In this document: positions 10,430-60,670 of the stretch, in pieces
How positions within the stretch are numbered: the first letter of the stretch is position 1
Layout: every line of letters starts with the position of its first letter
NCBI RefSeq assembly: GCF_028728065.1
Contig: NZ_CP117812.1
Location: 1 to 64,000 of the forward strand
Direction: 5' to 3'
DNA from: Lentisphaera profundi
Lineage (GTDB): Bacteria; Verrucomicrobiota; Lentisphaeria; Lentisphaerales; Lentisphaeraceae
Length of the DNA stretch: 64,000 bases
Notes under the pieces: model-generated
What the model saw: the letters and a program-made list of their open reading frames with translations, nothing else
Databases searched by the model: none
What the model was told of the DNA's origin: nothing
Translations under genes and position numbers: made by a program

Positions 10430-10514
10430 TTTTGTACCTCTCCTCATTAATCGGTACAGTAATTTTGTTGTAGCCGATATATACTTGTTATCTTAATTTA
10501 ACACAGGGAAGTTT

Positions 10515-44200: not shown

Positions 44201-47200
44201 CAATATGATGAACCGTGCCATCTTTAGCATGGATAATGAGGTTGTCTTGAACATTTTGTCCAACAGCTAGAGCTTGGACAGCATTGCTTTGTGCGGTGGT
44301 TTGGTCGAGTTGATAGGTCCAGGATCCATCAGTGTTCATATGGAGTGAGCCATATGTGCCCTGAACATCTTCGTCTCTAAATGAGGATTGATTATCATCG
44401 GGATCAGTAATGGTGAGGCTTCCTGTGGCACTTGTACTTGCGTCTTCGGTTGTTGAACCTGTAGCGACACCAGCGATTGTGGGAACGTCATTTGTCCCTT
44501 GTATCGTAAGCGTCGTCGTCTGATGGACGAGACCACCATGTGAGTCTTTGACATCATAAGTGAGGGTGATTGTTTGACTATCACCTGCAGCAAGATGATT
44601 GAAACTTGCATCCGTAGGATCAAGAACAAGCGTATGGCCATCAGCAGCGAGGGTGACACCTGCAGGTAGCGACGTGTTTGCTGTGGCTGAACCCATTTGG
44701 TATTGAATATTGTCAATGCTTAATGTTTCCCCAGTATCAGGATCGGTAGCGCCATGGAGCAAATCAACGTTATGGGTAGAGCCATCCTCCTTGCTGGTAT
44801 CCGTAAGCGCAGCCGCGACTTCTGGTGGTGCATTGACAAAAAGACTTACACCTTGAGTGACTGACTTGCTCTCACCGGATTCAGAGGCAGTTGCTGTAAC
44901 GTTGAAGTTGAGATCACCATGGAAATTGGCATTATGGAGGTCAACCTTTAAACCTTGAAGGTCAGATTGATGGAGAACCCACATTTTTGCCAGGCCATCC
45001 CATGTTCCGTTACTGAGTGTGGATCCTACGGGAAGACCCGAAATTTTAACCAGCAAATCCTCATTGGTGTTTTCATCAGTCAATTGAGCATTGAGATTCA
45101 AGGGGATTTCGTTCCCTTGCTGAGCTGTCAGAGCATTTGCGCTAAGCGTGGGTGCATCCACGGAGCCGTGAATGGTGATGGTGACAGGGTGAGTAACGGA
45201 CTGACCATCTGGCGTTGTGGCCGTGACTTGAACCACTTCCTGCAGCGTCTGATTTGGACCTAAATGGTTAACGTCCGCATTGCTGTTATCCATATGATAG
45301 TGGTACTGACCATGTTCATCAATTGAGAACGTTCCATACTTCACTGCATGTTGAGCTTGCGCGGTGAACGTTGGGGTATCGCCATCATCCACATCTGAGG
45401 CCGTCAAATGACCATTGATATCAGTTTGAGACGTATCTTCTTTCATGTCGACATCCAAACCTGCAGGTGTATTGTCATCCACCGCCGGGCCATGAACGTC
45501 GTAGACCCGTTCCGCAGAACTATGCCCTTGGGCATCTTCGGTATGGAGATGATGTTCGCCATCCGCCAAGCCGGGTGCGGCCAATGACCAATGACCGTTG
45601 CTATCAACAGTGGCCGTGCCAAGAATTGAGTTTCCTTCTTTGACCGTAATCGTTTCCCCAGCAGTTCCCTGGCCTGAAAGCAGAGCGTTGCCTTTGCTTA
45701 AATGATCATATTTACTGTAATAGAGGTAGTCGACTTCACTTGGACCGCCATCACAAACACGATTAATTACACCAATGGTACCATCAGAGAAAACAACAAC
45801 GCCACCTTCCCAGGAGTTGCCATGACCAGATGCACCGCCTGAACCGGTATTAGTTGTATCGGGAACTCCATGGGATTGCCACCAACCGTGACTATCGACA
45901 CGACTAAAACCCCCTGAACCACTATGAGCGGTGGAAGTTGTGGGCTCCTGCCCAGAACTTAGCTCATTATGATCACTACCAGGTTTATAGAGACCAACAA
46001 TGTGAACGCCTGCACCAGGACCGGTTTGGCTAGCACCCCAATTTGCATGAGGATCAATCGTTGAACCATCAACCTTATCAATCACCTGCAAATCTTGGAT
46101 ACTCATTCCCCCTGTGCCAGTCGCGGAGGAACTTGCGGTGCTGGAAATAACAGGTTGATCTTCTGTGCCGTGAATCGTCACGGTAACCGTATGTTTGGTT
46201 CCGTCGCTAGCCGTGAAAACATGGCTCTCGGTTTGGGAGGCGCCTTGGTCCAAATTTTGAACTTTGCTGTTGTCCAGCGTAAACTGCCAGTTTCCATTGC
46301 TCATCGACCAAGAACCATAAGTACCCGGAGTTGCTGCTACGTCGGCAAAGCCTGGAGTGTCCGTTTTGTCTAGGTCACTGATAGTAAGTTGTTCTGATAC
46401 ACTTGCAGTTCCATCTTCAGTTACACTACCAGTGCTTGTTCCAGTGACTACGGCGGCATCGTCTGTGCCGTTGATTGTTACATTGATTTGATGTGTCGTT
46501 CCATCGGCTGATTGAACGGTTATACTTTCGGTCAGCCTTTCACCTGAACCAAGTTCCTGCACGGTGGTATTGGAGTTATCGAGATCGTAAGTCCAGGCAC
46601 CAGAATCGGTCATGTGTAAGGTGCCGAGAGTTCCAGTATAATCAGTATCCGAGAAATGATTTTCACCAGTGTCGGTGTCGCTAATGGTCAGAGTACCAGA
46701 AGTCTGCAGAGCAGATTCTTCTGTGACTTGACCCGTTGCGGAACCCGCAATCTGGGCGACGTCATTAGTACCATTGACGGTAAGGGTGATCTGATGAGTA
46801 GTTCCGTCAGCTGATTTCACTGTAATGGTATCAGTTGCAGAGCTTCCTTGAGCAAGGGCTTGCACGGTGGTATTGGAATTATCTAAATCGTAAGTCCAGG
46901 CACCAGAGTCAGTCATATGCAAGGTGCCGAGGGTACCTGTATAATCAGTATTGGAGAAATGATTTTCGCCAGTATCGGTATCGGAAATTGTCAGGGTGCC
47001 TGACGTTTGTAGGCTTGTTTCTTCCGTGACTTGACCTGAATGAGTACCTGTGATTTGGGCGGCATCATTAGTACCGTTGACGGTAACGGTGATCTGATGA
47101 CTTGTACCATCAGCTGATTTCACGGTGATGGTATCAGTTGCAGAGCTTCCTTGAGCGAGAGCTTGCACGGTGGTGTTAGAGTTATCGAGATCATAAGTCC

Positions 47201-50200
47201 AAGCACCAGAGTCAGTCATATGCAGAGTGCCGAGAGTACCCGTGTAATCAGTATCCGAGAAATGATTTTCACCAGTGTCGGTGTCGCTAATGGTCAGAGT
47301 ACCAGAAGTCTGCAGAGCAGATTCTTCTGTGACTTGACCCGTTGCGGAACCCGCAATCTGGGCGACATCATTGGTGCCATTGACAGTTACTGTGATTTGA
47401 TGAGTAGTTCCGTCAGCTGATTTTACGGTGATAGTATCCGTAGCAGAGCTTCCTTGAGCGAGAGCTTGCACGGTGGTATTGGAGTTATCGAGATCATAAG
47501 TCCAGGCACCAGAATCAGTCATATGCAGAGTACCCAAAGTCCCTGTGTAATCCGTATCCGAGAAATGATTTTCGCCTGTGTCAGTATCAGAAATAGTAAG
47601 TGTGCCAGAAGTCTGCAGGGCAGATTCTTCAGTGACTTGTCCCGTTGCGGAACCCGCAATCTGGGCGACGTCATTAGTGCCATTGACGGTAACGGTGATC
47701 TGATGAGTAGTTCCGTCAGCTGATTTCACGGTGATGGTATCAGTTGCAGAGCTTCCTTGAGCGAGGGCTTGCACTGTGGTATTGGAATTATCGAGATCGT
47801 AAGTCCAGGCACCAGAATCGGTCATGTGCAGAGTGCCGAGAGTTCCAGTGTAATCCGTGTCGGAGAAATGATTTTCGCCTGTGTCAGTGTCGCTAATGGT
47901 CAGAGTACCCGAAGTCTGTAGGGCAGATTCTTCAGTGACTTGTCCCGTTGCGGAACCCGCAATCTGGGCGGCATCATTCGTACCGTTGACAGTTACTGTG
48001 ATCTGATGAGTAGTTCCGTCAGCTGATTTCACAGTGATAGTATCCGTAGACCTTGCACCCTGAGCGAGGGCTTGCACGGTGGTATTGGAGTTGTCGAGAT
48101 CGTAAGTCCACGCCCCTGAGTCCGTCATGTGCAGTGTGCCGAGAGTGCCAGCGTAATCAGTATCAGAGAAATGTGCTTCCCCCGTGTCCGTGTCGCTAAT
48201 TGTCAGAGTGCCTGACGTTTGTAGGCTTGTTTCTTCTGTAACTTGACCTGAATGAGTACCTGTGATTTGGGCGGCATCATTAGTACCGTTGACGGTAACG
48301 GTGATCTGATGACTTGTACCATCAGCTGATTTCACGGTGATGGTATCAGTTGCAGAGCTTCCTTGAGCGAGAGCTTGCACGGTGGTGTTAGAGTTATCGA
48401 GATCATAAGTCCAAGCACCAGAGTCCGTCATGTGCAGCGTGCCGAGAGTACCGGCGTAATCAGTATCAGAGAAATGCGCTTCGCCCGTGTCCGTGTCGGA
48501 AATTGTCAGAGTGCCTGACGTTTGTAGGCTTGTTTCTTCCGTGACTTGGCCTGAATTAGTACCCGCAATCTGAGCGACATCATTCGTACCGTTGACCGTG
48601 AGGGTAATTTGATGGGTGCTGCCATCGGCAGATTTCACGGTGATAGTATCCGTTGCAGAGCTTCCTTGAGCGAGGGCTTGCACGGTGGTATTGGAGTTAT
48701 CGAGATCGTAAGTCCACGCCCCTGAGTCCGTCATGTGCAGCGTGCCGAGAGTGCCAGCATAATCAGTATTAGAGAAATGTGCTTCACCAGTATCGGTATC
48801 GGAAATTGTCAGGGTGCCTGACGTTTGTAGGCTTGTTTCTTCCGTGACTTGACCTGAATGAGTACCTGTGATTTGGGCGGCATCATTAGTGCCGTTGACC
48901 GTGAGGGTAATTTGATGGGTGCTGCCATCAGCAGATTTCACGGTGATAGTATCCGTTGCAGAGCTTCCTTGAGCGAGGGCTTGCACGGTGGTATTGGAGT
49001 TATCGAGATCGTAAGTCCACGCCCCTGAGTCCGTCATGTGCAGCGTGCCGAGAGTGCCAGCATAATCAGTATCCGAGAAATGTGCTTCACCAGTATCGGT
49101 ATCGGAAATAGTAAGTGTACCAGAAGTCTGCAGAGCAGATTCTTCAGTTACTTGGCCTGAATTAGTACCCGCAATCTGGGCGACATCATTAGTACCGTTG
49201 ACCGTAATAGTTATTTGATGAGTAGTTCCGTCAGCTGATTTCACAGTGATAGTATCGGTAGCCCTTGCACCTTGAGCGAGGGCTTGCACGCTTGTATTGG
49301 AGTTATCGAGATCGTAAGTCCACGCCCCTGAGTCCGTCATGTGCAGAGTGCCGAGAGTGCCGGCGTAATCAGTATCAGAGAAATGTGCTTCCCCCGTGTC
49401 TGTATCAGAAATAGTAAGTGTACCAGAAGTCTGCAGAGCAGATTCTTCAGTTACTTGACCCGTTGCGGAACCCGCAATCTGGGCGGCATCATTCGTACCG
49501 TTGACAGTTACTGTGATCTGATGAGTAGTTCCGTCAGCTGATTTCACAGTGATGGTATCAGTTGCAGAGCTTCCTTGAGCGAGGGCTTGCACGCTTGTAT
49601 TGGAATTATCGAGATCGTAAGTCCAGGCACCAGAATCGGTCATGTGTAAGGTGCCGAGAGTTCCAGTATAATCAGTATCCGAGAAATGATTTTCACCAGT
49701 GTCGGTGTCGCTAATGGTCAGAGTACCAGAAGTCTGCAGAGCAGATTCTTCTGTGACTTGACCCGTTGCGGAACCCGCAATCTGGGCGACGTCATTAGTA
49801 CCATTGACGGTAAGGGTGATCTGATGAGTAGTTCCGTCAGCTGATTTCACTGTAATGGTATCAGTTGCAGAGCTTCCTTGAGCAAGGGCTTGCACGGTGG
49901 TATTGGAATTATCTAAATCGTAAGTCCAGGCACCAGAGTCAGTCATATGCAAGGTGCCGAGGGTACCTGTATAATCAGTATTGGAGAAATGATTTTCGCC
50001 AGTATCGGTATCGGAAATTGTCAGGGTGCCTGACGTTTGTAGGCTTGTTTCTTCCGTGACTTGACCTGAATGAGTACCTGTGATTTGGGCGGCATCATTA
50101 GTACCGTTGACGGTAACGGTGATCTGATGACTTGTACCATCAGCTGATTTCACGGTGATGGTATCAGTTGCAGAGCTTCCTTGAGCGAGAGCTTGCACGG

Positions 50201-53200
50201 TGGTGTTAGAGTTATCGAGATCATAAGTCCAAGCACCAGAGTCAGTCATATGCAGAGTGCCGAGAGTACCCGTGTAATCAGTATCCGAGAAATGATTTTC
50301 ACCAGTGTCGGTGTCGCTAATGGTCAGAGTACCAGAAGTCTGCAGAGCAGATTCTTCTGTGACTTGACCCGTTGCGGAACCCGCAATCTGGGCGACATCA
50401 TTGGTGCCATTGACAGTTACTGTGATTTGATGAGTAGTTCCGTCAGCTGATTTTACGGTGATAGTATCCGTAGCAGAGCTTCCTTGAGCGAGAGCTTGCA
50501 CGGTGGTATTGGAGTTATCGAGATCATAAGTCCAGGCACCAGAATCAGTCATATGCAGAGTACCCAAAGTCCCTGTGTAATCCGTATCCGAGAAATGATT
50601 TTCGCCTGTGTCAGTATCAGAAATAGTAAGTGTGCCAGAAGTCTGCAGGGCAGATTCTTCAGTGACTTGTCCCGTTGCGGAACCCGCAATCTGGGCGACG
50701 TCATTAGTGCCATTGACGGTAACGGTGATCTGATGAGTAGTTCCGTCAGCTGATTTCACGGTGATGGTATCCGTTGCAGAGCTTCCTTGAGCGAGGGCTT
50801 GCACTGTGGTATTGGAATTATCGAGATCGTAAGTCCAGGCACCAGAATCGGTCATGTGCAGAGTGCCGAGAGTTCCAGTGTAATCCGTGTCGGAGAAATG
50901 ATTTTCGCCTGTGTCAGTGTCGCTAATGGTCAGAGTACCCGAAGTCTGTAGGGCAGATTCTTCAGTGACTTGTCCCGTTGCGGAACCCGCAATCTGGGCG
51001 GCATCATTCGTACCGTTGACAGTTACTGTGATCTGATGAGTAGTTCCGTCAGCTGATTTCACAGTGATAGTATCCGTAGACCTTGCACCCTGAGCGAGGG
51101 CTTGCACGGTGGTATTGGAGTTGTCGAGATCGTAAGTCCACGCCCCTGAGTCCGTCATGTGCAGTGTGCCGAGAGTGCCAGCGTAATCAGTATCAGAGAA
51201 ATGTGCTTCCCCCGTGTCCGTGTCGCTAATTGTCAGAGTGCCTGACGTTTGTAGGCTTGTTTCTTCTGTAACTTGACCTGAATGAGTACCTGTGATTTGT
51301 GCGGCATCATTAGTACCGTTGACGGTGACAGAAATTTGATGAGTTGTACCATCGGCAGATTTCACGGTGATAGTATCCGTTGCAGAGCTTCCTTGAGCGA
51401 GGGCTTGCACGGTGGTATTGGAGTTATCGAGATCGTAAGTCCACGCCCCTGAGTCCGTCATGTGCAGCGTGCCGAGAGTACCGGCGTAATCAGTATCAGA
51501 GAAATGCGCTTCGCCCGTGTCCGTGTCGGAAATTGTCAGAGTGCCTGACGTTTGTAGGCTTGTTTCTTCCGTGACTTGGCCTGAATTAGTACCCGCAATC
51601 TGAGCGACATCATTCGTACCGTTGACCGTGAGGGTAATTTGATGGGTGCTGCCATCGGCAGATTTCACGGTGATAGTATCCGTTGCAGAGCTTCCTTGAG
51701 CGAGGGCTTGCACGGTGGTATTGGAGTTATCGAGATCGTAAGTCCACGCCCCTGAGTCCGTCATGTGCAGCGTGCCGAGAGTACCGGCGTAATCAGTATC
51801 AGAGAAATGCGCTTCGCCCGTGTCCGTGTCGGAAATTGTCAGAGTGCCTGACGTTTGTAGGCTTGTTTCTTCCGTGACTTGGCCTGAATTAGTACCCGCA
51901 ATCTGAGCGACATCATTCGTACCGTTGACCGTGAGGGTAATTTGATGGGTGCTGCCATCGGCAGATTTCACGGTGATAGTATCCGTTGCAGAGCTTCCTT
52001 GAGCGAGGGCTTGCACGGTGGTATTGGAGTTATCGAGATCGTAAGTCCACGCCCCTGAGTCCGTCATGTGCAGCGTGCCGAGAGTGCCAGCATAATCAGT
52101 ATTAGAGAAATGTGCTTCACCAGTATCGGTATCGGAAATTGTCAGGGTGCCTGACGTTTGTAGGCTTGTTTCTTCCGTGACTTGACCTGAATGAGTACCT
52201 GTGATTTGGGCGGCATCATTAGTGCCGTTGACCGTGAGGGTAATTTGATGGGTGCTGCCATCAGCAGATTTCACGGTGATAGTATCCGTTGCAGAGCTTC
52301 CTTGAGCGAGGGCTTGCACGGTGGTATTGGAGTTATCGAGATCGTAAGTCCACGCCCCTGAGTCCGTCATGTGCAGCGTGCCGAGAGTGCCAGCATAATC
52401 AGTATCCGAGAAATGTGCTTCACCAGTATCGGTATCGGAAATAGTAAGTGTACCAGAAGTCTGCAGAGCAGATTCTTCAGTTACTTGACCCGTTGCGGAA
52501 CCCGCAATTTGGGCGACATCATTGGTGCCATTGACAGTTACTGTGATTTGATGAGTAGTTCCGTCAGCTGATTTCACAGTGATGGTATCAGTTGCAGAGC
52601 TTCCTTGAGCGAGGGCTTGCACGGTGGTATTAGAGTTGTCGAGATCGTAAGTCCACGCCCCTGAGTCCGTCATGTGCAGTGTGCCGAGAGTTCCAGTGTA
52701 ATCAGTATCCGAGAAATGATTTTCGCCCGTGTCCGTGTCGGAAATTGTCAGAGTGCCTGACGTTTGTAGGCTTGTTTCTTCCGTGACTTGGCCTGAATTA
52801 GTACCCGCAATCTGGGCGACATCATTAGTACCGTTGACCGTAATAGTTATTTGATGAGTAGTTCCGTCAGCTGATTTCACAGTGATAGTATCGGTAGCCC
52901 TTGCACCTTGAGCGAGGGCTTGCACGCTTGTATTGGAGTTATCGAGATCGTAAGTCCACGCCCCTGAGTCCGTCATGTGCAGAGTGCCGAGAGTGCCGGC
53001 GTAATCAGTATCAGAGAAATGTGCTTCCCCCGTGTCTGTATCAGAAATAGTAAGTGTACCAGAAGTCTGCAGAGCAGATTCTTCAGTTACTTGACCCGTT
53101 GCGGAACCCGCAATCTGGGCGGCATCATTCGTACCGTTGACAGTTACTGTGATCTGATGAGTAGTTCCGTCAGCTGATTTCACAGTGATGGTATCAGTTG

Positions 53201-54362
53201 CAGAGCTTCCTTGAGCGAGGGCTTGCACGCTTGTATTGGAATTATCGAGATCGTAAGTCCACGCACCTGAGTCCGTCATGTGTAGCGTGCCGAGAGTACC
53301 AGCGTAATCAGTATCAGAGAAATGTGCTTCCCCCGTGTCCGTGTCGGAAATTGTCAGAGTGCCTGACGTTTGTAGGCTTGTTTCTTCCGTGACTTGGCCC
53401 ATATCTGTGCCAGATATACTGGCAGCGTCATTTTTCCCAGTGATATCAATACTCACTGGTATCGACTTGCCATCAGTGGAGAGGATATTAAAATGTTCTT
53501 GTACTTGTTGTCCTTGAGTGAGTGCCTGGACATTGTGCGCTGAGTTATCTAGAGTGTAAGTCCAATGACCATTTTTAGCAATTGCGAGAGTACCATATGT
53601 GCCATGTAGCGAGCTAGCTTTGTAAGTAGGTGGGATGGATGATGGAGACAAATTACTAGTATGGATCTGTAGATTCCCTTGTACTACTTGATTATTATCT
53701 TCTTCTGTTTGGCCATGAGTTGAACCAGATAGGCTAGAAATGGCAGGGCCTAAATTTTGTGATGAATGTGAGCCTGTATTAGCGTAAGGGTGATAGGGCT
53801 GAAATACCGGAGTTGTAGCATTACCACTAGGAGCGAGGATTTGATAAGTCTGAGTTGGGATATGAATGAGAGGGGCTTGACCAGGAGATGAGCTATTGGC
53901 TTGATCGGAAGAAATTAATACCTCTCCACCAAATTCATCAGCGATACTATCGATAGTAGAAGGGATGGAGAAATTTATCACATTATCAATATCTACTTTT
54001 GGAGGAAGAATTAGTAAGAAATCACTGAGATCTTCAATAGATAAATAGACCGAACCATCGGGCTGAATTACGGCCCCATCTAGCTCAGTATCTTGGGGTA
54101 AATTTGTGATATGAACTTCACGAATCGAAGGGTCGTCTGGAAGAGAAAAATGGATAACAAAGTCTTTTTCGCCTTGATCAGCTATCTGGATTTTCAGTTC
54201 ATAGTTTTTATCATCAGGGGCTTTTTCATCAGCTTCAACCTGCTCCAATTTTTCATCGAGGGGACGATAATCAGCATGTTTTTCTGCTTCAGCTAATTTT
54301 TCATCAAGAGGACGATAATCATCTTTATTGGAAGCATGATTTTGCGGGGTATCTTCAGCCAT
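38208..54362 (-). CDS. giant VCBS-repeat adhesin, probable type I secretion cargo (5384 residues)
   Basis: One uninterrupted 16.2-kb frame with an AAGGAG ribosome site. In order: an N-terminal region of about 310 residues with the motif DYRPLDEKL twice and no signal peptide; 23 near-identical VCBS repeats of about 101 residues (about 315-2637; TISDTDTGEAHFSDTDYAGT, TDSGAWTYDLDNSNTTVQAL); a divergent VCBS unit; a Gly/Ser/Trp-rich region (about 2740-2970); further cadherin-like and tandem-95 type units (EDQDYQFTAANFGF, three close copies); a laminin-G/concanavalin-like domain (about 3610-3800); more bacterial Ig-like units; and an Asp/His-rich C terminus (about 5250-5384). RTX GGxGxD repeats are absent. 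The export operon lies immediately upstream (10-nt gap). It should be exported to the surface for adhesion or biofilm. The charged, His-rich tail probably replaces the usual RTX secretion signal. Confidence 0.93.
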   Translation of the reverse strand: MAEDTPQNHASNKDDYRPLDEKLAEAEKHADYRPLDEKLEQVEADEKAPDDKNYELKIQIADQGEKDFVIHFSLPDDPSIREVHITNLPQDTELDGAVIQPDGSVYLSIEDLSDFLLILPPKVDIDNVINFSIPSTIDSIADEFGGEVLISSDQANSSSPGQAPLIHIPTQTYQILAPSGNATTPVFQPYHPYANTGSHSSQNLGPAISSLSGSTHGQTEEDNNQVVQGNLQIHTSNLSPSSIPPTYKASSLHGTYGTLAIAKNGHWTYTLDNSAHNVQALTQGQQVQEHFNILSTDGKSIPVSIDITGKNDAASISGTDMGQVTEETSLQTSGTLTISDTDTGEAHFSDTDYAGTLGTLHMTDSGAWTYDLDNSNTSVQALAQGSSATDTITVKSADGTTHQITVTVNGTNDAAQIAGSATGQVTEESALQTSGTLTISDTDTGEAHFSDTDYAGTLGTLHMTDSGAWTYDLDNSNTSVQALAQGARATDTITVKSADGTTHQITITVNGTNDVAQIAGTNSGQVTEETSLQTSGTLTISDTDTGENHFSDTDYTGTLGTLHMTDSGAWTYDLDNSNTTVQALAQGSSATDTITVKSADGTTHQITVTVNGTNDVAQIAGSATGQVTEESALQTSGTLTISDTDTGEAHFSDTDYAGTLGTLHMTDSGAWTYDLDNSNTTVQALAQGSSATDTITVKSADGSTHQITLTVNGTNDAAQITGTHSGQVTEETSLQTSGTLTISDTDTGEAHFSNTDYAGTLGTLHMTDSGAWTYDLDNSNTTVQALAQGSSATDTITVKSADGSTHQITLTVNGTNDVAQIAGTNSGQVTEETSLQTSGTLTISDTDTGEAHFSDTDYAGTLGTLHMTDSGAWTYDLDNSNTTVQALAQGSSATDTITVKSADGSTHQITLTVNGTNDVAQIAGTNSGQVTEETSLQTSGTLTISDTDTGEAHFSDTDYAGTLGTLHMTDSGAWTYDLDNSNTTVQALAQGSSATDTITVKSADGTTHQISVTVNGTNDAAQITGTHSGQVTEETSLQTSGTLTISDTDTGEAHFSDTDYAGTLGTLHMTDSGAWTYDLDNSNTTVQALAQGARSTDTITVKSADGTTHQITVTVNGTNDAAQIAGSATGQVTEESALQTSGTLTISDTDTGENHFSDTDYTGTLGTLHMTDSGAWTYDLDNSNTTVQALAQGSSATDTITVKSADGTTHQITVTVNGTNDVAQIAGSATGQVTEESALQTSGTLTISDTDTGENHFSDTDYTGTLGTLHMTDSGAWTYDLDNSNTTVQALAQGSSATDTITVKSADGTTHQITVTVNGTNDVAQIAGSATGQVTEESALQTSGTLTISDTDTGENHFSDTDYTGTLGTLHMTDSGAWTYDLDNSNTTVQALAQGSSATDTITVKSADGTSHQITVTVNGTNDAAQITGTHSGQVTEETSLQTSGTLTISDTDTGENHFSNTDYTGTLGTLHMTDSGAWTYDLDNSNTTVQALAQGSSATDTITVKSADGTTHQITLTVNGTNDVAQIAGSATGQVTEESALQTSGTLTISDTDTGENHFSDTDYTGTLGTLHMTDSGAWTYDLDNSNTSVQALAQGSSATDTITVKSADGTTHQITVTVNGTNDAAQIAGSATGQVTEESALQTSGTLTISDTDTGEAHFSDTDYAGTLGTLHMTDSGAWTYDLDNSNTSVQALAQGARATDTITVKSADGTTHQITITVNGTNDVAQIAGTNSGQVTEESALQTSGTLTISDTDTGEAHFSDTDYAGTLGTLHMTDSGAWTYDLDNSNTTVQALAQGSSATDTITVKSADGSTHQITLTVNGTNDAAQITGTHSGQVTEETSLQTSGTLTISDTDTGEAHFSNTDYAGTLGTLHMTDSGAWTYDLDNSNTTVQALAQGSSATDTITVKSADGSTHQITLTVNGTNDVAQIAGTNSGQVTEETSLQTSGTLTISDTDTGEAHFSDTDYAGTLGTLHMTDSGAWTYDLDNSNTTVQALAQGSSATDTITVKSADGTSHQITVTVNGTNDAAQITGTHSGQVTEETSLQTSGTLTISDTDTGEAHFSDTDYAGTLGTLHMTDSGAWTYDLDNSNTTVQALAQGARSTDTITVKSADGTTHQITVTVNGTNDAAQIAGSATGQVTEESALQTSGTLTISDTDTGENHFSDTDYTGTLGTLHMTDSGAWTYDLDNSNTTVQALAQGSSATDTITVKSADGTTHQITVTVNGTNDVAQIAGSATGQVTEESALQTSGTLTISDTDTGENHFSDTDYTGTLGTLHMTDSGAWTYDLDNSNTTVQALAQGSSATDTITVKSADGTTHQITVTVNGTNDVAQIAGSATGQVTEESALQTSGTLTISDTDTGENHFSDTDYTGTLGTLHMTDSGAWTYDLDNSNTTVQALAQGSSATDTITVKSADGTSHQITVTVNGTNDAAQITGTHSGQVTEETSLQTSGTLTISDTDTGENHFSNTDYTGTLGTLHMTDSGAWTYDLDNSNTTVQALAQGSSATDTITVKSADGTTHQITLTVNGTNDVAQIAGSATGQVTEESALQTSGTLTISDTDTGENHFSDTDYTGTLGTLHMTDSGAWTYDLDNSNTTVQELGSGERLTESITVQSADGTTHQINVTINGTDDAAVVTGTSTGSVTEDGTASVSEQLTISDLDKTDTPGFADVAATPGTYGSWSMSNGNWQFTLDNSKVQNLDQGASQTESHVFTASDGTKHTVTVTIHGTEDQPVISSTASSSATGTGGMSIQDLQVIDKVDGSTIDPHANWGASQTGPGAGVHIVGLYKPGSDHNELSSGQEPTTSTAHSGSGGFSRVDSHGWWQSHGVPDTTNTGSGGASGHGNSWEGGVVVFSDGTIGVINRVCDGGPSEVDYLYYSKYDHLSKGNALLSGQGTAGETITVKEGNSILGTATVDSNGHWSLAAPGLADGEHHLHTEDAQGHSSAERVYDVHGPAVDDNTPAGLDVDMKEDTSQTDINGHLTASDVDDGDTPTFTAQAQHAVKYGTFSIDEHGQYHYHMDNSNADVNHLGPNQTLQEVVQVTATTPDGQSVTHPVTITIHGSVDAPTLSANALTAQQGNEIPLNLNAQLTDENTNEDLLVKISGLPVGSTLSNGTWDGLAKMWVLHQSDLQGLKVDLHNANFHGDLNFNVTATASESGESKSVTQGVSLFVNAPPEVAAALTDTSKEDGSTHNVDLLHGATDPDTGETLSIDNIQYQMGSATANTSLPAGVTLAADGHTLVLDPTDASFNHLAAGDSQTITLTYDVKDSHGGLVHQTTTLTIQGTNDVPTIAGVATGSTTEDASTSATGSLTITDPDDNQSSFRDEDVQGTYGSLHMNTDGSWTYQLDQTTAQSNAVQALAVGQNVQDNLIIHAKDGTVHHIVMDVAGSNDAPTVTVATLHGTEDQDYQFTAANFGFADTDTTDTLDHVTITDLPDLATEGQLMLNGVAISANQDISAADIQHLTFVPKSDFNGDINFKYTVNDGNADSAEATGTLTLANVNDLPTIVATSATTTEDTDIILTKADLLSGSADIDHDTLDVNSVHVDPAHGTITDNGDGTWTYHPATNFKGDADISYKVNDGTANVDNHMTMAVSTVTDPANIQLTTSVEQQIVSTGSTGRIQVDSIAAPSALTEFTFEMTVLGKAVADTGASTGPVVVNMGHGTSTNMLSLWNPGNMKIGGAGDIATGINLGDGNSHRVTLTWDSTSGDLKVFDNGQLVSTAHGYHKGGTLPADLYMVLGQKANGGIASPTWNSGEHYDGNIFNAAMSTHSMSSQQVAQGPLASMASVHTGLIFDVRSIAGHIQDTTGAHTLAENGVHHESQIVDTNMSVPPPGSLLHITPQVSPSDPDDKVTGIAIQGFIKDTVVSDGSHTHTITGIGDQIDLQGWDLSKITAQLPAGVVHNMNIGVTATTEGPDGTHEIHTEFNGIKLDPTRPIPNAIISGDDLENTDEDSAVPGTLTIQDNDASQQSFSANTYHGAFGDLSMQSGGQWTFTPKSNLNSMADGDSHKDIFTVESTDGTLHEIQVNIAGTNDAPTVTASPLSGTEDQDYQFTAANFGFTDVDTSDTLDHVTITDLPDPTEGVLMLNGVALSANQDISATDIQHLTFTPKADFNGDVNFKYTVNDGNADSPESTGNLTVTNINDAPVVTNALASSVDEGDASSSLDLLQGASDIDADTLSVNGIQYSVDGAAATSSLPAGLSLSADGHILSIDPTNAVFDHLAAGETQALTITYNISDGQGGTIAQTATFNVAGTNDAPTVTIASLHGTEDQDYQFTAANFGFTDVDTSDTLDHVTITDLPDISEGVLTLDGNAVTDGQDISSGDIGKLLFTPVADFNGDVNFKYTVNDGTSDSAEATGTIQVANTVDAPTMTGTDTTGDEDTAIALTLGATAAAGDAITQYVITGVPTGASFSTGHDDGHGQWTVQAGDISGLKITPPKDFSGDIQLHATATASDGSHTADSTAHAITLNVNPVADAPNIDAFDVNGSSSLAAAAGPPSLDQTITLDANQADLLSKYDPSSKTGLSFLQFTGGATLDDLAGIKVNGHPAPFSMGMMKHFDIEHHGELLQIPVGGLAHFLPLSGLHTGDTIEFSFKAGVQPSAGLRIIGFDPSSQGTLFDVIRGVSTFSSVMGLGTEAVLFDHLAGQAGGAPKALGLTEDGSLDLHFSVSDPDSSEHLQLHIEGLPAGTTLNHGTKQADGSWLVDSGDATSLTASFPKNFHGSIDLNVKAISTDGTDTAESAAMSRHIDIASVTDVARVDVQNIDAGEHQQWLDMPLSAHATDSQDPITGVTITDLPASFSLRLAAGTSGTAPVHNIDGSWTIDPSTLSHLQVNTHDTDGVTADYKLHVITTGPDNSTEEVVRLGHITLDAVIEDIVSVDSSWVGASSAAPIDLSAGGNIHHVGDLIDFKQVDTDETTMLYVRVADGVLVTRPGGMATYPVSDDLSHGKVDPDPGFVTYHVPVAEMDQAAIYGKSGVMNNLDIQIRVEQSEGTYGEASSASATETFHFTGADIGGHNFIPTATVQSIDTQEDSAHTFSVSDFGFSDGDAGDVLDHVSITGLPDTKQGTLTLDGNAVSAGQDITAGDIAKLVFTPATDFHGDVDFKYTVSDGKNDSIESTGTLTVIQGHASLTEDQDHEVSGFIDAHPSDGHDVDFTAGHFDGTFGALDLQTDGSWKYTLDQAKADHLNDGDLEHDVFSVATTTGEHHDITLDVHGHTDVATALPPPPAPPVHGAVQADAPDMFDDPLQSFMALVNDVDHSSQEILHHDVDSFMAHVDTNYQNASSHDIADVDSFTDNIDLHISDHSDQDEVTKQAVENLDQDQVHDLFETQDHDDPSLAIHDVDIVDADHHSQDDHHLDDHNIIDDPLDDEPLDDQMI
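46450..53420 (-). repeat. array of 23 near-identical 303-bp coding repeats
   Basis: Each 303-bp unit encodes one 101-residue VCBS domain, and the units fill about 6.97 kb without a frame break. Sequence classes alternate (start IAGSATGQ, IAGTNSGQ or ITGTHSGQ; GEAHFSDTDYA or GENHFSDTDYT). Blocks repeat at higher order: units 8-13 and 18-23 correspond with a 3030-bp shift, and neighbouring units 6 and 7 are identical over at least 195 bp. Such an array is prone to length change by recombination. Confidence 0.93.
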
Positions 54363-54372
54363 GATTTACTCC

Positions 54373-55716
54373 TTACCTTTCGTGTAAACCGCTCTCAAGA
54401 GTGGTATAAATTGGTTTTAATAAATATTGAAAGACTGTTTTATTGCCGGTAATAATATCGACTTCGGAAGTCATGCCGGGCAAGAGCTTGTGTTCTTTGA
54501 TGCTTCCAAGGTAAACTTGTTTGGGACTTACCCAACCTTTGTAGAAAAGACCTCCTCGTTCGTCGGAAAAAGTCGTCGGTGAAATACGCGTAATTGTCCC
54601 TTCAATAGAGCCATAGCGTGAGAAATCGTAAGTATCTAGTTTTACTTGAGTATTTTGGCCAGTTTTGACAAAGCCGATATCTTTTGGTGAGATTTTAATT
54701 TCAATACTGTAACCCGTGTTGATGGGGACAATTTCCGCGACGACGCCACCAGCAGGTATGACGGAGCCAATAGAGCTACGGGGGAGGCTTTTTATAATGC
54801 CAGCAATAGGTGATTTAAGTGTATTTTTATCAAGATTCGAACTGGATTCTTTGATTTGTTCCGTAAGTCCAGCGAGATCAACTAAGACTTGGCTACGCAA
54901 TTGAAGCGCCTCAGAAAAAAACGAGCGTTTTATTTTGTCGACATTAGCTTCTACGCCTTCTAGCTGCTCAGTTAGATTTTTGCGATTATTTTGAGCACTA
55001 ATTAAACGGTTACTCACTTCGGCTTCTTGTTTCCGCGCATTGAGAATCTCGAGTTTAGAGACGGAGTCAGCTTTTTCGAGATCTTCATACATTTTGAGGA
55101 TTTCTTTATCTGCAGCTGCCTGCCTCCTCAAAGCGGGTAATTTACGATCAATTCCCCTGATTTGTTCTTGGATTGCATCTGATTTTTCCATTTCAACCGC
55201 AATGGAGGAAAAGAGTGCTTTATTACGACCGAGAAGCTCTTCTCTTTCTTCTTCAATGAGGTGGTGATATTTTTTTTCTAATTGGGTAAAATCGGGTTTG
55301 CGTTCCTGTACAAATGCTTTGAGTAACTCAGATTTTATTTGTAGGCCAATTTGTTTAGTACTGAGGCGATTTAATTCAGTGGAGGCATGAACAGGGTCAA
55401 AGGCTAAGAGCAGTTGTCCCTTCTCAACAATGTCGCCTTCTTTACAGAACAGTTCTGTTATTTGCCCACCCTCTAAACTCTGAATAATTTGCAGGTCACC
55501 AACGGGAATGACTTGCCCATGTGTCTTGGTGACTTCATCAATTGAGGTACTTGCGGCCCAAAAAATACCGCTACAAATAAAAATGGTGGTGAGTATAATA
55601 ACTGTAGAGATGGCTTTTTTATTGGAGTCGAGATGATTGAGAGAAGATTCGTTAAAAACAGTTTGTGGTTGGTTTTTAGCGAGTTCAATAATTTCTTTGT
55701 ATTGATTTTTTTTCAT
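54373..55716 (-). CDS. HlyD-type periplasmic adaptor (membrane fusion protein) of a type I secretion system
   Basis: A 447-residue protein: cytoplasmic N terminus, one membrane segment (about residues 37-55), then a lipoyl half (QVIPVGDLQIIQSLEGGQI and FCKEGDIVEKGQLLLAFDP), a long coiled coil (about 115-290), the second lipoyl half (LKSPIAGIIKSLPRSSIGSV) and a beta-barrel/C-terminal region with GMTSEVDIITGNKTVFQYLL, close to the C-terminal signature of LapC/HlyD-like adaptors. It should bridge the ABC exporter in the inner membrane and the outer-membrane channel. It overlaps the upstream ABC gene by 4 nt and is followed 10 nt later by the adhesin gene. Confidence 0.93.
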   Translation of the reverse strand: MKKNQYKEIIELAKNQPQTVFNESSLNHLDSNKKAISTVIILTTIFICSGIFWAASTSIDEVTKTHGQVIPVGDLQIIQSLEGGQITELFCKEGDIVEKGQLLLAFDPVHASTELNRLSTKQIGLQIKSELLKAFVQERKPDFTQLEKKYHHLIEEEREELLGRNKALFSSIAVEMEKSDAIQEQIRGIDRKLPALRRQAAADKEILKMYEDLEKADSVSKLEILNARKQEAEVSNRLISAQNNRKNLTEQLEGVEANVDKIKRSFFSEALQLRSQVLVDLAGLTEQIKESSSNLDKNTLKSPIAGIIKSLPRSSIGSVIPAGGVVAEIVPINTGYSIEIKISPKDIGFVKTGQNTQVKLDTYDFSRYGSIEGTITRISPTTFSDERGGLFYKGWVSPKQVYLGSIKEHKLLPGMTSEVDIITGNKTVFQYLLKPIYTTLESGLHER

Positions 55717-57776
55717 GCGGAAACCTCAGGTTTTTTTTCAATAGGGCCAAAGTGAGCGACTGATCCTTTATCAAGGATAAGAGCGTTATCGGCGAGTTGC
55801 ATTAATTCGGCACAGAGGGTTGTGAAGAAGATTGTTTTATGTCCATGAATTTGTTCAAGTAAATAGATGAAGAGCGCTTTTTCTTTAGGATAATGAGCGC
55901 TCAGATTGATGTCTAGCAGTACAATGGGGGCATCTTTAATAAAGATATTCATCACTGAGAGGTGTCTCTTTAAATAGGGATCATCTAAGTCAGCCAATTC
56001 AGTTTCTAAAGTTTTACCGCAATCAAGAAGTTCTTTAGTGAACAAATGGGCCTCACATAAACTTTTGATTTTCTCTAATGAGCACTGAGGATTGAGTTCA
56101 TGAAGAAAATCTATAATAGAGATGTGAGACCGTGGAACCCACTCACCCGCATAAGATAATTCATCACGAAAATGATAAGCATTAATATTTTTTAAATTAC
56201 TAGTGCCGATCATAGCTTTGCCTGATTGGGCATCAATAGTTTTTGTGAGGATATTTATAAGAGTTGATTTTCCGCTATTATTAGGACCTGCAATGGCCGT
56301 GGTACTCTTAGCTTCTGACTCAAAACTAACCCCAGCGAGAGCAGGATCTTGGCTATTGTTGTAGCGGAAAACGACATTATCAAATTTAAAGCCCGCAGTT
56401 TCAGTAAAGATGTTTTCTCCGGAAGATTTTTCGTCTTCAATGGGAATATAACGATCAATTTGTGCGAGCGTATTTTTGAATTTAGGTAAGCGACCAAAAG
56501 ACATAGCGGAGGACTGTATAGGTGAGGTCACTCGACGAGCGAGCATCATCGCCGCAATGAGGTCGCCAGCAGTTAATTTTTGATCCATCACTAAATAAAT
56601 ACCCGTGGCCATTGTGGCGAGACTCGTAAATTGGCTCAATACATATGATGAGTTTTGCATGAGCTGAGACAGCTTGATTTGAGTGCGATTTGCCTTGACG
56701 CTAATTTTATTAAAGTCATGATAGCGTGCTAACCAAGAATTTTTGAGCGCGGCGGCCTCGAGTTGCTGAGCATGGCGAGCCAAATCTATTTCGAGATTAA
56801 GCTTTTCCTTCTGAGCATAAGAAGAACTCATCGAGGATTGGCTTATGAGTTTATTAAAGAAAGGAATAATTAGGGCATAAATGACAATCGAAATTAAAGG
56901 CACAAGAACTAACCATCCTCCTGTGATAAAAATAGTAATGAGTGAAATGCTTAAGAAAGGTATATCTAAGAGTGATAAGCCTGAATTACTAATGAAAAAA
57001 CTACGGATGGCATCGATTTCTTTAAAACGACCAATCAGGTTTTGGTAGGGTTGGTTAGCACTTTGTAGAAAAGGTAAATTAAGGATTTTTCGGCCATATG
57101 ATAAAGTGAGTTTATAGGTCCATGAGCGACAAATATTAGCAGCCAATCTCACACGAACAAAGCGGAAGCTAAACAGAAAAATCATTGCTAGAACAGCCCC
57201 AAAAGCTAAGTGGCTTAAAGTATTAATCGACTTTGAAGGAATGGCCATATCATAGACGTGTCTGGTGAAGAGCGGAATGACAAGAGCTAAGAAGCCTAAG
57301 ATAGATGAGATCCCCAAAGCTAATATGATTTTCGGCCAAAACAGTTGTAGGCTGGTCCAGGACCAAGAACGGATTTTAGCTGAGTGATCAGTCAAGTCAA
57401 GGACTTTAAAAACATTGACTTTATGCGGACGGTCAATAGCAGATAGTTGTTCTCCGTTGTGAACGAGTAGTTGATCCCCTTTATCTTCTAGAATAACAAG
57501 CATTTCTTGATTGATCTCTGCAATGGCAATATGATCAAGAGGAGTTTGCGAGAGTTTATTTTCTTCGAGTACGTAACCCAGGCTAAGAAGAATGAGATGA
57601 ATGGAGCTCGAATCAAGTTTTGGTTGTTGACTGATGATGCTCGCCAATTGATTGGAGGTTCCTTGCCAATTAACAGCGCTTAAAATGATGGGTAGGGTCT
57701 TTAAGCACGCATGATCCTGTTCAAGCGATTCAATAAGTTCAATGACATCTTGATAAATTTTTTCTGAGTTATGCAT
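55713..57776 (-). CDS. T1SS ABC exporter subunit, C39-like N terminus, ATPase motifs mostly degenerate
   Basis: A 687-residue protein with the layout of LapB/HlyB exporters: an N-terminal C39-peptidase-like domain (about 1-130) without a catalytic Cys at the expected position, a six-segment membrane domain (about 145-430) and a nucleotide-binding domain (about 455-687). The Walker A is intact (GPNNSGKST). The ABC signature is unrecognisable (DPYLKRHLSV in its place), the Walker B reads IVLLDINLS with Asn where the catalytic Glu should be, and the switch His is Thr (IFFTTLC). It may bind ATP but should hydrolyse it poorly. It overlaps its ABC partner by 8 nt and the adaptor gene by 4 nt. Confidence 0.88.
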   Translation of the reverse strand: MHNSEKIYQDVIELIESLEQDHACLKTLPIILSAVNWQGTSNQLASIISQQPKLDSSSIHLILLSLGYVLEENKLSQTPLDHIAIAEINQEMLVILEDKGDQLLVHNGEQLSAIDRPHKVNVFKVLDLTDHSAKIRSWSWTSLQLFWPKIILALGISSILGFLALVIPLFTRHVYDMAIPSKSINTLSHLAFGAVLAMIFLFSFRFVRVRLAANICRSWTYKLTLSYGRKILNLPFLQSANQPYQNLIGRFKEIDAIRSFFISNSGLSLLDIPFLSISLITIFITGGWLVLVPLISIVIYALIIPFFNKLISQSSMSSSYAQKEKLNLEIDLARHAQQLEAAALKNSWLARYHDFNKISVKANRTQIKLSQLMQNSSYVLSQFTSLATMATGIYLVMDQKLTAGDLIAAMMLARRVTSPIQSSAMSFGRLPKFKNTLAQIDRYIPIEDEKSSGENIFTETAGFKFDNVVFRYNNSQDPALAGVSFESEAKSTTAIAGPNNSGKSTLINILTKTIDAQSGKAMIGTSNLKNINAYHFRDELSYAGEWVPRSHISIIDFLHELNPQCSLEKIKSLCEAHLFTKELLDCGKTLETELADLDDPYLKRHLSVMNIFIKDAPIVLLDINLSAHYPKEKALFIYLLEQIHGHKTIFFTTLCAELMQLADNALILDKGSVAHFGPIEKKPEVSA

Positions 57777-59304
57777 TAGCGACCTCCATTGCTGCCATCA
57801 AAGCAGCTTTTTGTGCGGATCTCGCTTCTGCTTGCTTCTTTTCTTCAAGAAGAAACTCATTCTTAGTTAACATCAGAGGATCCTTTACTAAAATCATAAA
57901 ATCATCTAATGAGTGAATGAAACTGATGAAACGCCAACGAGAAGCGGGGTCAAAAGAGCTTAAAATATCTTCAATGAGAATAAATTTTTTATTAGAAATC
58001 AGAGCTCGAATAAGAGCGATTTGTATTTTGGTTGACTTGTCATAGAAATCGAATCTATCGTTATTAACAGGATCCTCGTAGCCCTTGGGGAGCTTGTTGA
58101 AATATTCATGGAGTCCGAGTTGTCCTGCATAATCCAAGGCCTCACTGGCGTAGATTTTTTTAAAGGCAGTTAAATTTTCAATTATGGTGCCTGAAAACAA
58201 AGGGCAATGGCCGTCGATTTTAATAAAGTCAGGTTCTGAAATTCTATGATTATTGTATTTTAAATCAAAATCGTCAAGATTATCGAGAAGGTAAACACCT
58301 TCAATGCAGGGAGTGCTGTGAATACTAATAGTTTGAATCTGAAAAAACTCTTTGAAATCTTGGTTTTCAAAATGACTCAGCTCTTCTTTTGCGAGGGCAT
58401 TTTCCTGTAAGCGTACACCGGTGTTGAGTAATGCACCTACGGGAGCAATACAACGCCCTGCCAAGATAGAACAAGCTGCTAGGGCTCCCGTAGTTAACTC
58501 TCCTTGAATAACTTTGTAAGCACCAAAGCTAATGACGGATATGGTGGAGAGCTGACTAAGGACTTGGATAATGGAGCTCAGGTGAGATTGAAGTGCTGCC
58601 TGGCGAGTCGTGTTAGAAATATGATCGCTTAGGATGTTGTTTAGTTGCGCTTCTTCAATAGCAACTAAATTATTTTTTTTCTTTGAATCAAGATGAAAGA
58701 AAAAGCCATACAGTCGTGCTTGGAGGTTTTGTTCATTGCTTTCTTTTGTAAGCGATATTCGTTTTGCGTAACGGGAAAGAGTAAGACTGCTGATGATCGC
58801 AATGATGAAGAGAACTCCAGGAACTAAAGCCACATCTCCAGCTAAAAACCAGAGGATATAAAGGTAGAAAAACACGAAGGGTAAGTCAAGTAAAGCGACA
58901 ATGCTTTGGCCGGAATAATTGTTTTTGAGGATATTTAATTTATCAAAAAAAGTACGAACTCGAATGGGGCTATACTCTTTCGATGAAGTCATTATTTTAT
59001 CGGCTAATAGAATGGGAGCATCAAGTGCATAGGCTTCGCTATAGATCTGCAGTACTAAGGCCCTTAGATAGCGGAATAAGCCATCGATTACAACAGCGAT
59101 AAAAGCTGCTGAGAAAAGTAATAAAGCGGTCGAAACGGAATTATTACCTAAAATTCTATCGTAGACATGAAGCATGACAATAGGAACAGTTAAGCCTAGG
59201 ATATTAATCATAAAAGACGCCGCTAAGACATCTAGATGGATGTTTAAAAAAGGAACTATAGTTTTTGTTTTGGGCATGATAAATTTCGTCCTACCATCCA
59301 CCAC
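57769..59304 (-). CDS. T1SS ABC exporter partner subunit with no Walker A
   Basis: A 511-residue membrane protein with a type I exporter transmembrane domain (about 20-320; PIVMLHVYDRILGNNS, LLDLPFVFFYLYILWFLAGD are family-like) and a shrunken nucleotide-binding domain. No Walker A is found. A Q-loop-like PLFSGTIIENL remains. The signature position reads YDKSTKIQIALIRAL, and the Walker B is FILIEDILSSFD, with Glu-Asp instead of Asp-Glu. It is therefore a non-catalytic partner, suggesting a heterodimeric transporter with the next gene. The start may be 59304, overlapping the channel gene by 14 nt, or the ATG at 59277 behind TAGGACG. Confidence 0.82.
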   Translation of the reverse strand: MVDGRTKFIMPKTKTIVPFLNIHLDVLAASFMINILGLTVPIVMLHVYDRILGNNSVSTALLLFSAAFIAVVIDGLFRYLRALVLQIYSEAYALDAPILLADKIMTSSKEYSPIRVRTFFDKLNILKNNYSGQSIVALLDLPFVFFYLYILWFLAGDVALVPGVLFIIAIISSLTLSRYAKRISLTKESNEQNLQARLYGFFFHLDSKKKNNLVAIEEAQLNNILSDHISNTTRQAALQSHLSSIIQVLSQLSTISVISFGAYKVIQGELTTGALAACSILAGRCIAPVGALLNTGVRLQENALAKEELSHFENQDFKEFFQIQTISIHSTPCIEGVYLLDNLDDFDLKYNNHRISEPDFIKIDGHCPLFSGTIIENLTAFKKIYASEALDYAGQLGLHEYFNKLPKGYEDPVNNDRFDFYDKSTKIQIALIRALISNKKFILIEDILSSFDPASRWRFISFIHSLDDFMILVKDPLMLTKNEFLLEEKKQAEARSAQKAALMAAMEVANA

Positions 59305-60670
59305 CTAGGCTTATAAAGACTTTCGAAGTTTGAGAGAGAACTTCACGGTAGTTATCCAAGTAACGTTGCTTTGAATTGATTAGCGTCCGCTCAACTTCAA
59401 ATACTTCAAGATGTGAAATAAGTCCAGTCTCAAAGCGTTTCATCGTTTGTTGGTAAGAGACTTCCAATTGATTAGTACGTTCTTTTTCGATGGCTAATTG
59501 CTGACGGCGGTATTTGATGTTCATTATTGCTTCTTCAACATCATTAACTGCGGAGAGTAGAGATTTTTTGTACTCTATTTGTTTTGATTCAACAAAAACT
59601 CCGCGGCGTTCAAGTTCAACTTTAGTAGCAGGATCAAGTGCAGGGAAAGAGATTTTAGGTAAAACTGAAAGAACCCAATTATCGGTGATGCTCGCTAAGC
59701 TTGCAGAGGACATTGTGTAGTCTAGACCTACAGAGACTTGGGGAAGGCGTGCCACTCTTGCGGACTCTTCGTTAAAGTAAGCTTCACGTAAACGTAAGTC
59801 AGCGGCAATAACGTCGGGTCGTCGCGAGATAAGTGAAAAGCTCAATTCTTTTGGAGGCTCTGGAATACTTATGCTTTGTGTCATTTTTTGATGTTCAAGC
59901 GTAATCGCATGAGGAGCTCTACCAAGTAGCAGATTGAGTTGCATAGCGAGGACTTCTCGTTGACGTTCAATATTGACTAAGTCTGATTTTAAACGGAGTA
60001 CTTCCGCTTTTTGGGATGATGCTTGTTCTTTATTTGCGAGACCAATTTTTTCTCTATTGACGTACATGCGCAAAATCTCTTCAGTATCTTTAATAGCCCA
60101 TTCATGAAGTGACTGTTGTTCATCAAGCATGCGAATATTGAAGTAGATATTCGCCATGTCATTGATGACTTTTAGGTAGGCGCCGCGGTAATCGGCTTCA
60201 GTAGCTTTGTATTCAGCTAAAGCACCGCGACTAGCGGCTTCTAAGCGGCCCCAAATATCGGCTTCCCAGCTCACATGAGCATTAAATTTTGAACGAGATT
60301 TGAAGTTGCCATCATCACTACTAGTAGATCCAGGCTGAGAGATGCTGGAACTAAGTTTTGGGATTTTGTCGAACTGAGCATCAGACACAGCTAAGCGAGC
60401 GAGATCGACTCTTTTAACTAATAATTTAAGATCTAAGTTTTGGTCTACTGCCTGTAAGATAAGGTCATTTAATGTGGGATCATCAAAAGCTTGCCACCAA
60501 TCTTTATTAATTTTGAATGGACTCTTTGAAGTAAAATCTGCTTTTGCATCATTTTCGACAGATTTAGAAATCTCATTTTTTTTATTAATTTGCTTCGTTT
60601 CTACATCTTTCATGTTTCCACAGGAAACCATAGCTAGAGTGGCACTGAGTGCCATAAAAGTGTTTTTCAT
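59291..60670 (-). CDS. TolC/NodT-type outer-membrane channel lipoprotein
   Basis: A 459-residue outer-membrane efflux protein. The signal sequence ends in a lipobox (LAMVSC, Cys at about residue 17), so it is lipidated, as in the NodT subgroup. Two tandem coiled-coil/strand repeats are visible (WWQAFDDPTLNDLILQAVDQ, LDLKLLVKRVDLARLAV; later SFSLISRRPDVIAADLRLRE, the PDV motif). It is the leading gene of the adhesin-export operon and would supply the channel through which the giant adhesin leaves the cell. Lipid-anchored channels are more usual for RND pumps, so this is a slightly unusual T1SS component. Confidence 0.9.
   Translation of the reverse strand: MKNTFMALSATLAMVSCGNMKDVETKQINKKNEISKSVENDAKADFTSKSPFKINKDWWQAFDDPTLNDLILQAVDQNLDLKLLVKRVDLARLAVSDAQFDKIPKLSSSISQPGSTSSDDGNFKSRSKFNAHVSWEADIWGRLEAASRGALAEYKATEADYRGAYLKVINDMANIYFNIRMLDEQQSLHEWAIKDTEEILRMYVNREKIGLANKEQASSQKAEVLRLKSDLVNIERQREVLAMQLNLLLGRAPHAITLEHQKMTQSISIPEPPKELSFSLISRRPDVIAADLRLREAYFNEESARVARLPQVSVGLDYTMSSASLASITDNWVLSVLPKISFPALDPATKVELERRGVFVESKQIEYKKSLLSAVNDVEEAIMNIKYRRQQLAIEKERTNQLEVSYQQTMKRFETGLISHLEVFEVERTLINSKQRYLDNYREVLSQTSKVFISLGGGW

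Follow-up and report, generated by a model that had tools for sequence, protein, structure and literature searches.

The type I exporters closest to the system described here are the LssB/LapB-type proteins (NCBIfam TIGR03375) and HlyB, the known members of which are homodimers with a Walker A motif, an LSGGQ signature, a catalytic Glu, and a switch His in the nucleotide-binding domain (NBD). Two ABC subunits, RtxB and RtxE, are found in the atypical four-component type I system of MARTX, where both were reported to be necessary for secretion, with RtxD as the adaptor and TolC encoded elsewhere (PMC3034196). Exporters that combine a degenerate site with a canonical one have been well described (PMC7756269); such asymmetric exporters, which include TmrAB, TM287/288, BmrCD, TAP, and CFTR, are heterodimers or fused halves. 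ATP binding can be sufficient for the inward-to-outward switch of TM287/288, and the role of ATP hydrolysis in the cycle of such exporters has been described as open (PMC8277102). In the RTX adhesin systems (LapA/LapBCE), a giant repetitive surface protein is encoded beside the type I system.

A 64,000-nucleotide stretch of Lentisphaera profundi DNA (contig NZ_CP117812.1, positions 1 to 64,000; hereafter the window) was found to encode a type I secretion gene set, consisting of an ABC exporter, a HlyD adaptor, and an outer-membrane factor, with a large putative cargo (Table 1). The five operon genes occur on the minus strand in the order TolC/NodT, small ABC subunit, big ABC subunit (hereafter small and big), HlyD, and the 5384-aa VCBS protein, and they either overlap or are separated by short gaps. 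All five reading frames are open in the window, and the small gene shares 8-14 nt with each of its two neighbours. TIGR03375 (LssB) was the top NCBIfam family for both ABC subunits, with 245.2 bits for big and 201.1 bits for small, both under the curated cut-off of 693.1 bits. An earlier note on this DNA had proposed that a type I exporter made of two subunits lies next to a VCBS giant; both open reading frames were recovered where it had placed them, and the operon families and the conserved pairing bear the proposal out. Downstream of the VCBS protein, a 1050-aa protein with an autotransporter beta-domain (33405-36557) was observed, and the 408-aa ORF between it and the cargo (36885-38111) had no Pfam or NCBIfam match.

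Table 1. Operon genes and motif segments of the two ABC subunits in the window.
Feature	Positions	Strand	Basis
TolC/NodT-type outer-membrane factor, 459 aa, first operon gene	59291-60670	-	Pfam OEP 3.3e-37, TIGR01845 3.5e-66
Small ABC subunit, 511 aa, GTG start: transmembrane domain and truncated NBD	57769-59304	-	TIGR03375 (LssB) 2.7e-59
Small, signature-equivalent FYDKSTKI, residues 420-427	58024-58047	-	Alignment
Small, Walker B/D-loop FILIEDILSSFDP, residues 441-453	57946-57984	-	Alignment
Big ABC subunit, 687 aa, with N-terminal and transmembrane domains and a complete NBD fold	55713-57776	-	TIGR03375 1.2e-72
Big, Walker A GPNNSGKST, residues 497-505, intact	56262-56288	-	Alignment; Lys503 invariant in 89 rows
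Big, Walker B IVLLDINLSAHYP, residues 618-630	55887-55925	-	Alignment and AlphaFold2 model
Big, switch segment IFFTTLCA, residues 649-656	55809-55832	-	Alignment
HlyD-type periplasmic adaptor, 447 aa	54373-55716	-	TIGR01843 5.4e-102
Putative cargo, 5384-aa VCBS protein	38208-54362	-	Family scans, repeat search

The motif states of both subunits were taken from an alignment to intact exporters, including the intact one of the same genome. The big subunit keeps its Walker A and lacks the ABC signature, as had been noted previously; the signature region reads DDPYLKRHL (598-606), with LSGGQ absent. Two further substitutions claimed for big, Asn for the catalytic Glu and Thr for the switch His, were each one position off. 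The aligned catalytic position in IVLLDINLSAHYP is Ile623, with N624 at the Pro position of DEP one residue past it, and the switch His position is Leu654 (T652-T653-L654). Asp622 of Walker B is present, the D-loop Asp is gone, and the Q-loop Gln position is occupied by Glu545. An AlphaFold2 model of big (46-row alignment) reached a pLDDT of 84.8 with a complete NBD, in which the Walker B strand (618-621) lies directly ahead of D622. The closest solved relative of big is HlyB (7sgr_B, VIA-align Z 26.4), with which it has in common the order of N-terminal domain, transmembrane domain, and NBD, and an N-terminal alpha/beta domain occupies the place of the C39-like domain of HlyB in the model.

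For small, the alignment agreed with the earlier description of a missing Walker A, a scrambled signature, and Glu-Asp in place of Asp-Glu. The segment expected to carry Walker A is missing, the signature reads Y421-D-K-S-T425 without LSGGQ or the fourth-position Gly, and FILIEDILSSFDP contains E445-D446 where Asp-Glu is expected, while its D-loop Asp452 is present. The switch His is also lost, the region reading FMILVKDP. In the AlphaFold2 model of small (46-row alignment; pLDDT 78.1, pTM 0.54), the transmembrane part is normal and the NBD lacks its P-loop half. Both models show an exporter (type I/IV) transmembrane fold followed by an NBD, truncated in small, and the closest solved structures identified with Foldseek and VIA-align included HlyB, PrtD, and PCAT1; heterodimers such as TmrAB also matched. 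Whole-chain string searches revealed no LSGGQ-like string in either window chain and no G-x4-GK[ST] anywhere in small. Hence, intact motifs are not hidden elsewhere in the chains, and the alignment likewise found none. The view that both subunits have lost canonical residues was thus correct in that both are degenerate, but it hid an asymmetry, as big keeps the Walker A Lys and the Walker B Asp and small keeps the D-loop Asp.

A search for other pairs, which the earlier note had recommended for loci next to VCBS adhesins, recovered them in many unrelated bacteria, either in tandem or fused and with motif losses of varying degree. In plasmid searches, the pair was found next to VCBS giants and HlyD in Vibrio, whereas in Azospirillum it took the form of a single fused protein next to Ig-like giants. 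Genome contigs were scanned with an alignment of big, using patterns from the transmembrane domain rather than the NBD, and the best 80 of 157 relatives were kept; these were ranked by similarity to the window big, so that more distant members with intact motifs are possible. Among these best 80 of 157, small was directly upstream of big or fused to it, with hlyD behind, at 77 loci, two of which (L092 and L117) begin inside the pair. The hosts of the pair included Shewanella, Vibrio, Colwellia, Desulfovibrionaceae, Rhodospira, Azospirillum, and Magnetospirillum. The remaining three loci were a MAG contig (L050) that ends inside big, L067, and L093. In L067 (7961-13057) of Vibrio aestivus CAIM 1861, all three genes (small, big, and hlyD) are frame-split, reflecting either decay or sequencing errors. 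In L093 of Vibrio lentus, big (9770-11779) and hlyD were present, and no small was detected in 21.7 kb by tblastn with a Vibrio small. Additionally, long frames with cargo-like ends flank the exporter pair on both sides in Vibrio breoganii (L115), perhaps representing two cargos.

Motif residues were counted in an alignment that included the window, MAG, and plasmid loci, and its rows are sequences, many of them from related species, rather than independent events. In big, the Gly, Gly, and Lys of Walker A and the Asp of Walker B were each found in 89 of 89 rows, and the switch His in 85 of 89. The catalytic position was more variable, with Glu in 50 of the 89 rows, Asn in 34, and Ile, Val, Asp, Thr, and Ser in one each; most of the Vibrio clade has Asn. 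In small, the D-loop Asp was present in all 87 rows and the fourth signature Gly in 83 of 87. A Walker A Lys was retained in only 17 of 87 small rows, all from Azospirillum, Rhodospira, and Magnetospirillum members, where both halves have an intact Walker A and the catalytic position is Glu. An LSGGQ-like string was absent from all 89 big and all 91 small chains. Since the Walker A Lys and Walker B Asp of big and the D-loop Asp of small are invariant in the sample, one nucleotide site looks retained. Given canonical dimer geometry, these residues of big and small would lie opposite one another within a single composite site. The motif pattern goes beyond chance, being conserved in homologues.

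A quick maximum-likelihood tree was constructed from the transmembrane domains of 67 rows, with SH-aLRT support and no bootstrap. One branch set all small chains apart and another all big chains, each with a support of 99. The two clades branch similarly, each including alphaproteobacteria with two Burkholderiales-type MAGs, Desulfovibrionaceae, Vibrio, and Shewanella with Colwellia. The Lentisphaeraceae grouped with Desulfovibrionaceae for small (96) and were unresolved for big; the tree program warned of long branches that meet, the window big among them. On this tree, two changes are required to explain Glu versus not-Glu in big, compared with a single one for the Walker A Lys of small, which indicates that the catalytic Glu of big has been lost at least twice. 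Taken together, these chains are best read as an old family of exporters made of small and big or of their fusion.

Extensive motif loss and the long branch of the window big would be expected if the operon were a pseudogene cluster in decay, a reading that is nevertheless highly improbable given the open frames of all five window genes, the retained Walker A of big, the conservation across the family, and the operon of a second Lentisphaeraceae genome. The MAG Lentisphaeraceae bacterium isolate S10.bin.24 has the identical five-gene order of TolC, small, big, HlyD, and VCBS cargo, spread over two contigs that each end within big, and the cargo that follows hlyD has an N-terminus homologous to that of the window cargo. 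Identity between the window and the MAG was 66% for small, 64-67% for big, 83% for HlyD, and 79% for TolC. In the MAG, the catalytic Glu is replaced by Val and the switch His by Leu, the signature reads Y-D-S-S-I, and the Walker A segment of small is likewise missing. In the ABC genes, 0.16-0.19 of second codon positions differ between the two genomes, compared with 0.60-0.63 of third positions, and dN was 0.26-0.29 with dS saturated, hence no dN/dS ratio. As second-position differences are far under third-position differences, both ABC genes are under purifying selection. Decay private to one genome, raised in the earlier note, was accordingly rejected, as the MAG carries the same losses under purifying selection and losses also occur in the wider family. 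The blocks of the big NBD around the signature were the least conserved between window and MAG (0.47 and 0.35 identity per 40 residues), a pattern compatible with relaxed constraint in this region. Among 60 relatives, an orthologue of small was found only in this MAG, and in 145 genomes drawn from the phylum the remaining matches at a strict cut-off were long single exporters. The absence of the pair from the other relatives searched suggests a possible lateral gain.

The putative cargo includes about 32 VCBS repeats followed by tandem-95 and cadherin-like repeats, as identified by family scans, and no RTX nonapeptide (GGxGxDxxx) was found in its 5384 aa. At its C-terminus, a Pro-rich linker leads into a tail of 155 aa (38211-38675) with 27% Asp+Glu and 10% His. 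For comparison, the ends were examined at 25 selected loci in which a minus-strand frame, a putative cargo by position, adjoins hlyD (Vibrio and one Ferrimonas). In 23 of the 25, a Pro-rich stretch lay 77 to 145 aa before the C-terminus and preceded a tail of 20-26% Asp+Glu and 7-13% His, and RTX matches numbered 0 or 1 in every frame within its available part. In the other two (L071 and L109), no stretch fitted the Pro-rich pattern, and the last 150 aa were similar in composition. Two Magnetospirillum frames have a linker as in the Vibrio-type frames, with the acidic tail absent. The Asp/Glu/His-rich tail is a candidate export signal.

The reading that is favored, with modest confidence, is an obligate heterodimeric type I exporter with one ATP-binding site, slow or no hydrolysis in Lentisphaeraceae, and export pulled by folding outside the cell. 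Small and big would form the inner-membrane exporter and act with HlyD and the TolC-like protein, presumably dedicated to the giant VCBS surface protein. In the retained composite site, Walker A and the Walker B Asp of big would face the signature Gly and D-loop Asp of small and bind ATP, and the second composite site would be dead or missing in most lineages. Members with Glu and His in big may hydrolyse ATP slowly at the retained site. As the big subunit of Lentisphaeraceae lacks both residues, ATP binding with very slow or no hydrolysis is inferred for this lineage, where binding would close the NBDs and gate the channel. Net export of the unfolded cargo would then be pulled mainly by its folding outside, by analogy to RTX proteins, although the window cargo itself has no RTX repeats. 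The non-standard ATP cycle proposed earlier is therefore a reasonable inference, both subunits being degenerate and the decay of one genome not being the cause. The proposed link between slow hydrolysis and a cargo of 5384 residues found no support, as related systems adjoin giants of other lengths.

The same invariant residues in big, together with the frequent His and Glu, the D-loop Asp and signature Gly of small, and the members with Walker A in both halves and Glu, are also consistent with a heterodimer that hydrolyses ATP at a useful rate through non-standard residues at the retained site, where the losses merely slow the cycle as in other deviant-site exporters. This is a possible but less probable explanation, considering that Glu, His, and the signature Gly are all missing from that site in Lentisphaeraceae, that Asn replaces Glu in most of the Vibrio clade, and that in BSEP the site with Met instead of Glu seems to be blocked for hydrolysis (PMC7756269). 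The role of the catalytic Glu could be taken by a residue elsewhere; the joint loss of Glu, His, and signature could also mean that the nucleotide no longer matters and that Walker A is kept for structure. Tentatively, the exporter of the Glu-less branches, and of this lineage most of all, might have become an ATP-gated protein channel that nucleotide binding opens or closes with little or no hydrolysis, where export of the giant protein is paid for by another force such as outside folding or the membrane potential.

The pair might instead serve as a channel only and draw its energy from a different ATPase, for example a SecA-like protein or the intact type I exporter encoded elsewhere in the genome. 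An additional LssB-type system, intact and with a HlyD and a TolC of its own, is indeed present in the same genome (C2:869013-873967; L145 7014-11967), and mixed complexes are conceivable given the three HlyB dimers of HlyB-HlyD (PMC11026475). SecA_DEAD proteins near type I parts have also been proposed as surrogate ATPases in PVC bacteria (PMC4452313). However, the operon contains no ATPase gene besides the ABC pair, and only one SecA over the cut-off was found in the genome, on the other contig, so that SecA_DEAD was rejected as a surrogate ATPase. When the LssB-type protein of the second system was used as a query in sixteen pair-bearing genomes, 12 yielded matches of 461 to 498 bits, Colwellia demingiae 309, and Azospirillum agricola 292. 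In the Lentisphaeraceae MAG (~86% complete; 177 bits) and Ferrimonas kyonanensis (180), only weaker exporters with signature motifs were present and no LssB-type system was detected. Hence, within the limits of draft genomes, the pair is not always accompanied by a detectable LssB-type partner. The involvement of another ATPase, an option of the earlier note, is thus improbable. One of the 12 higher-scoring matches, the best LssB-type match of Colwellia sp. 75C3 (L159), has LSRGQ in place of LSGGQ, its NBD being intact in other respects.

No report of the small and big family, or of a type I exporter without the signature in both halves, was found in open-licence papers. DVU1017 of Desulfovibrio vulgaris (PMC5646257) was considered as an experimental precedent and rejected, as one LapB-like transporter with RTX cargos is described there and no second subunit is named. 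The favored heterodimer would belong to a naturally occurring family that lacks the signature in both halves, has apparently lost the Glu at least twice, and has always kept Walker A in one half. A graded series from Azospirillum through Shewanella and Vibrio to Lentisphaeraceae could serve to test the role of ATP hydrolysis. The family also marks out certain type I systems next to giant surface proteins as a conserved class, one to which current family models assign scores far under their cut-off.

Compared with the LssB/LapB-type exporters and HlyB, the window pair forms two separate clades, lacks LSGGQ, has incomplete NBD motifs, and scores below the family cut-off. Like the asymmetric exporters, its family has putatively heterodimeric or fused halves and a degenerate site; in contrast to them, as they keep one canonical site (PMC7756269), LSGGQ is found in neither half of any sampled member. 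The likeness to MARTX RtxB/RtxE is in the two-subunit make-up, and in the present family the two subunits are conserved together; the gene order and cargo are different. As in the RTX adhesin systems, a giant repetitive protein lies beside the type I genes, but the cargo differs from LapA-like proteins in having no RTX nonapeptides and in ending with a Pro-rich linker and an acidic, His-rich tail.
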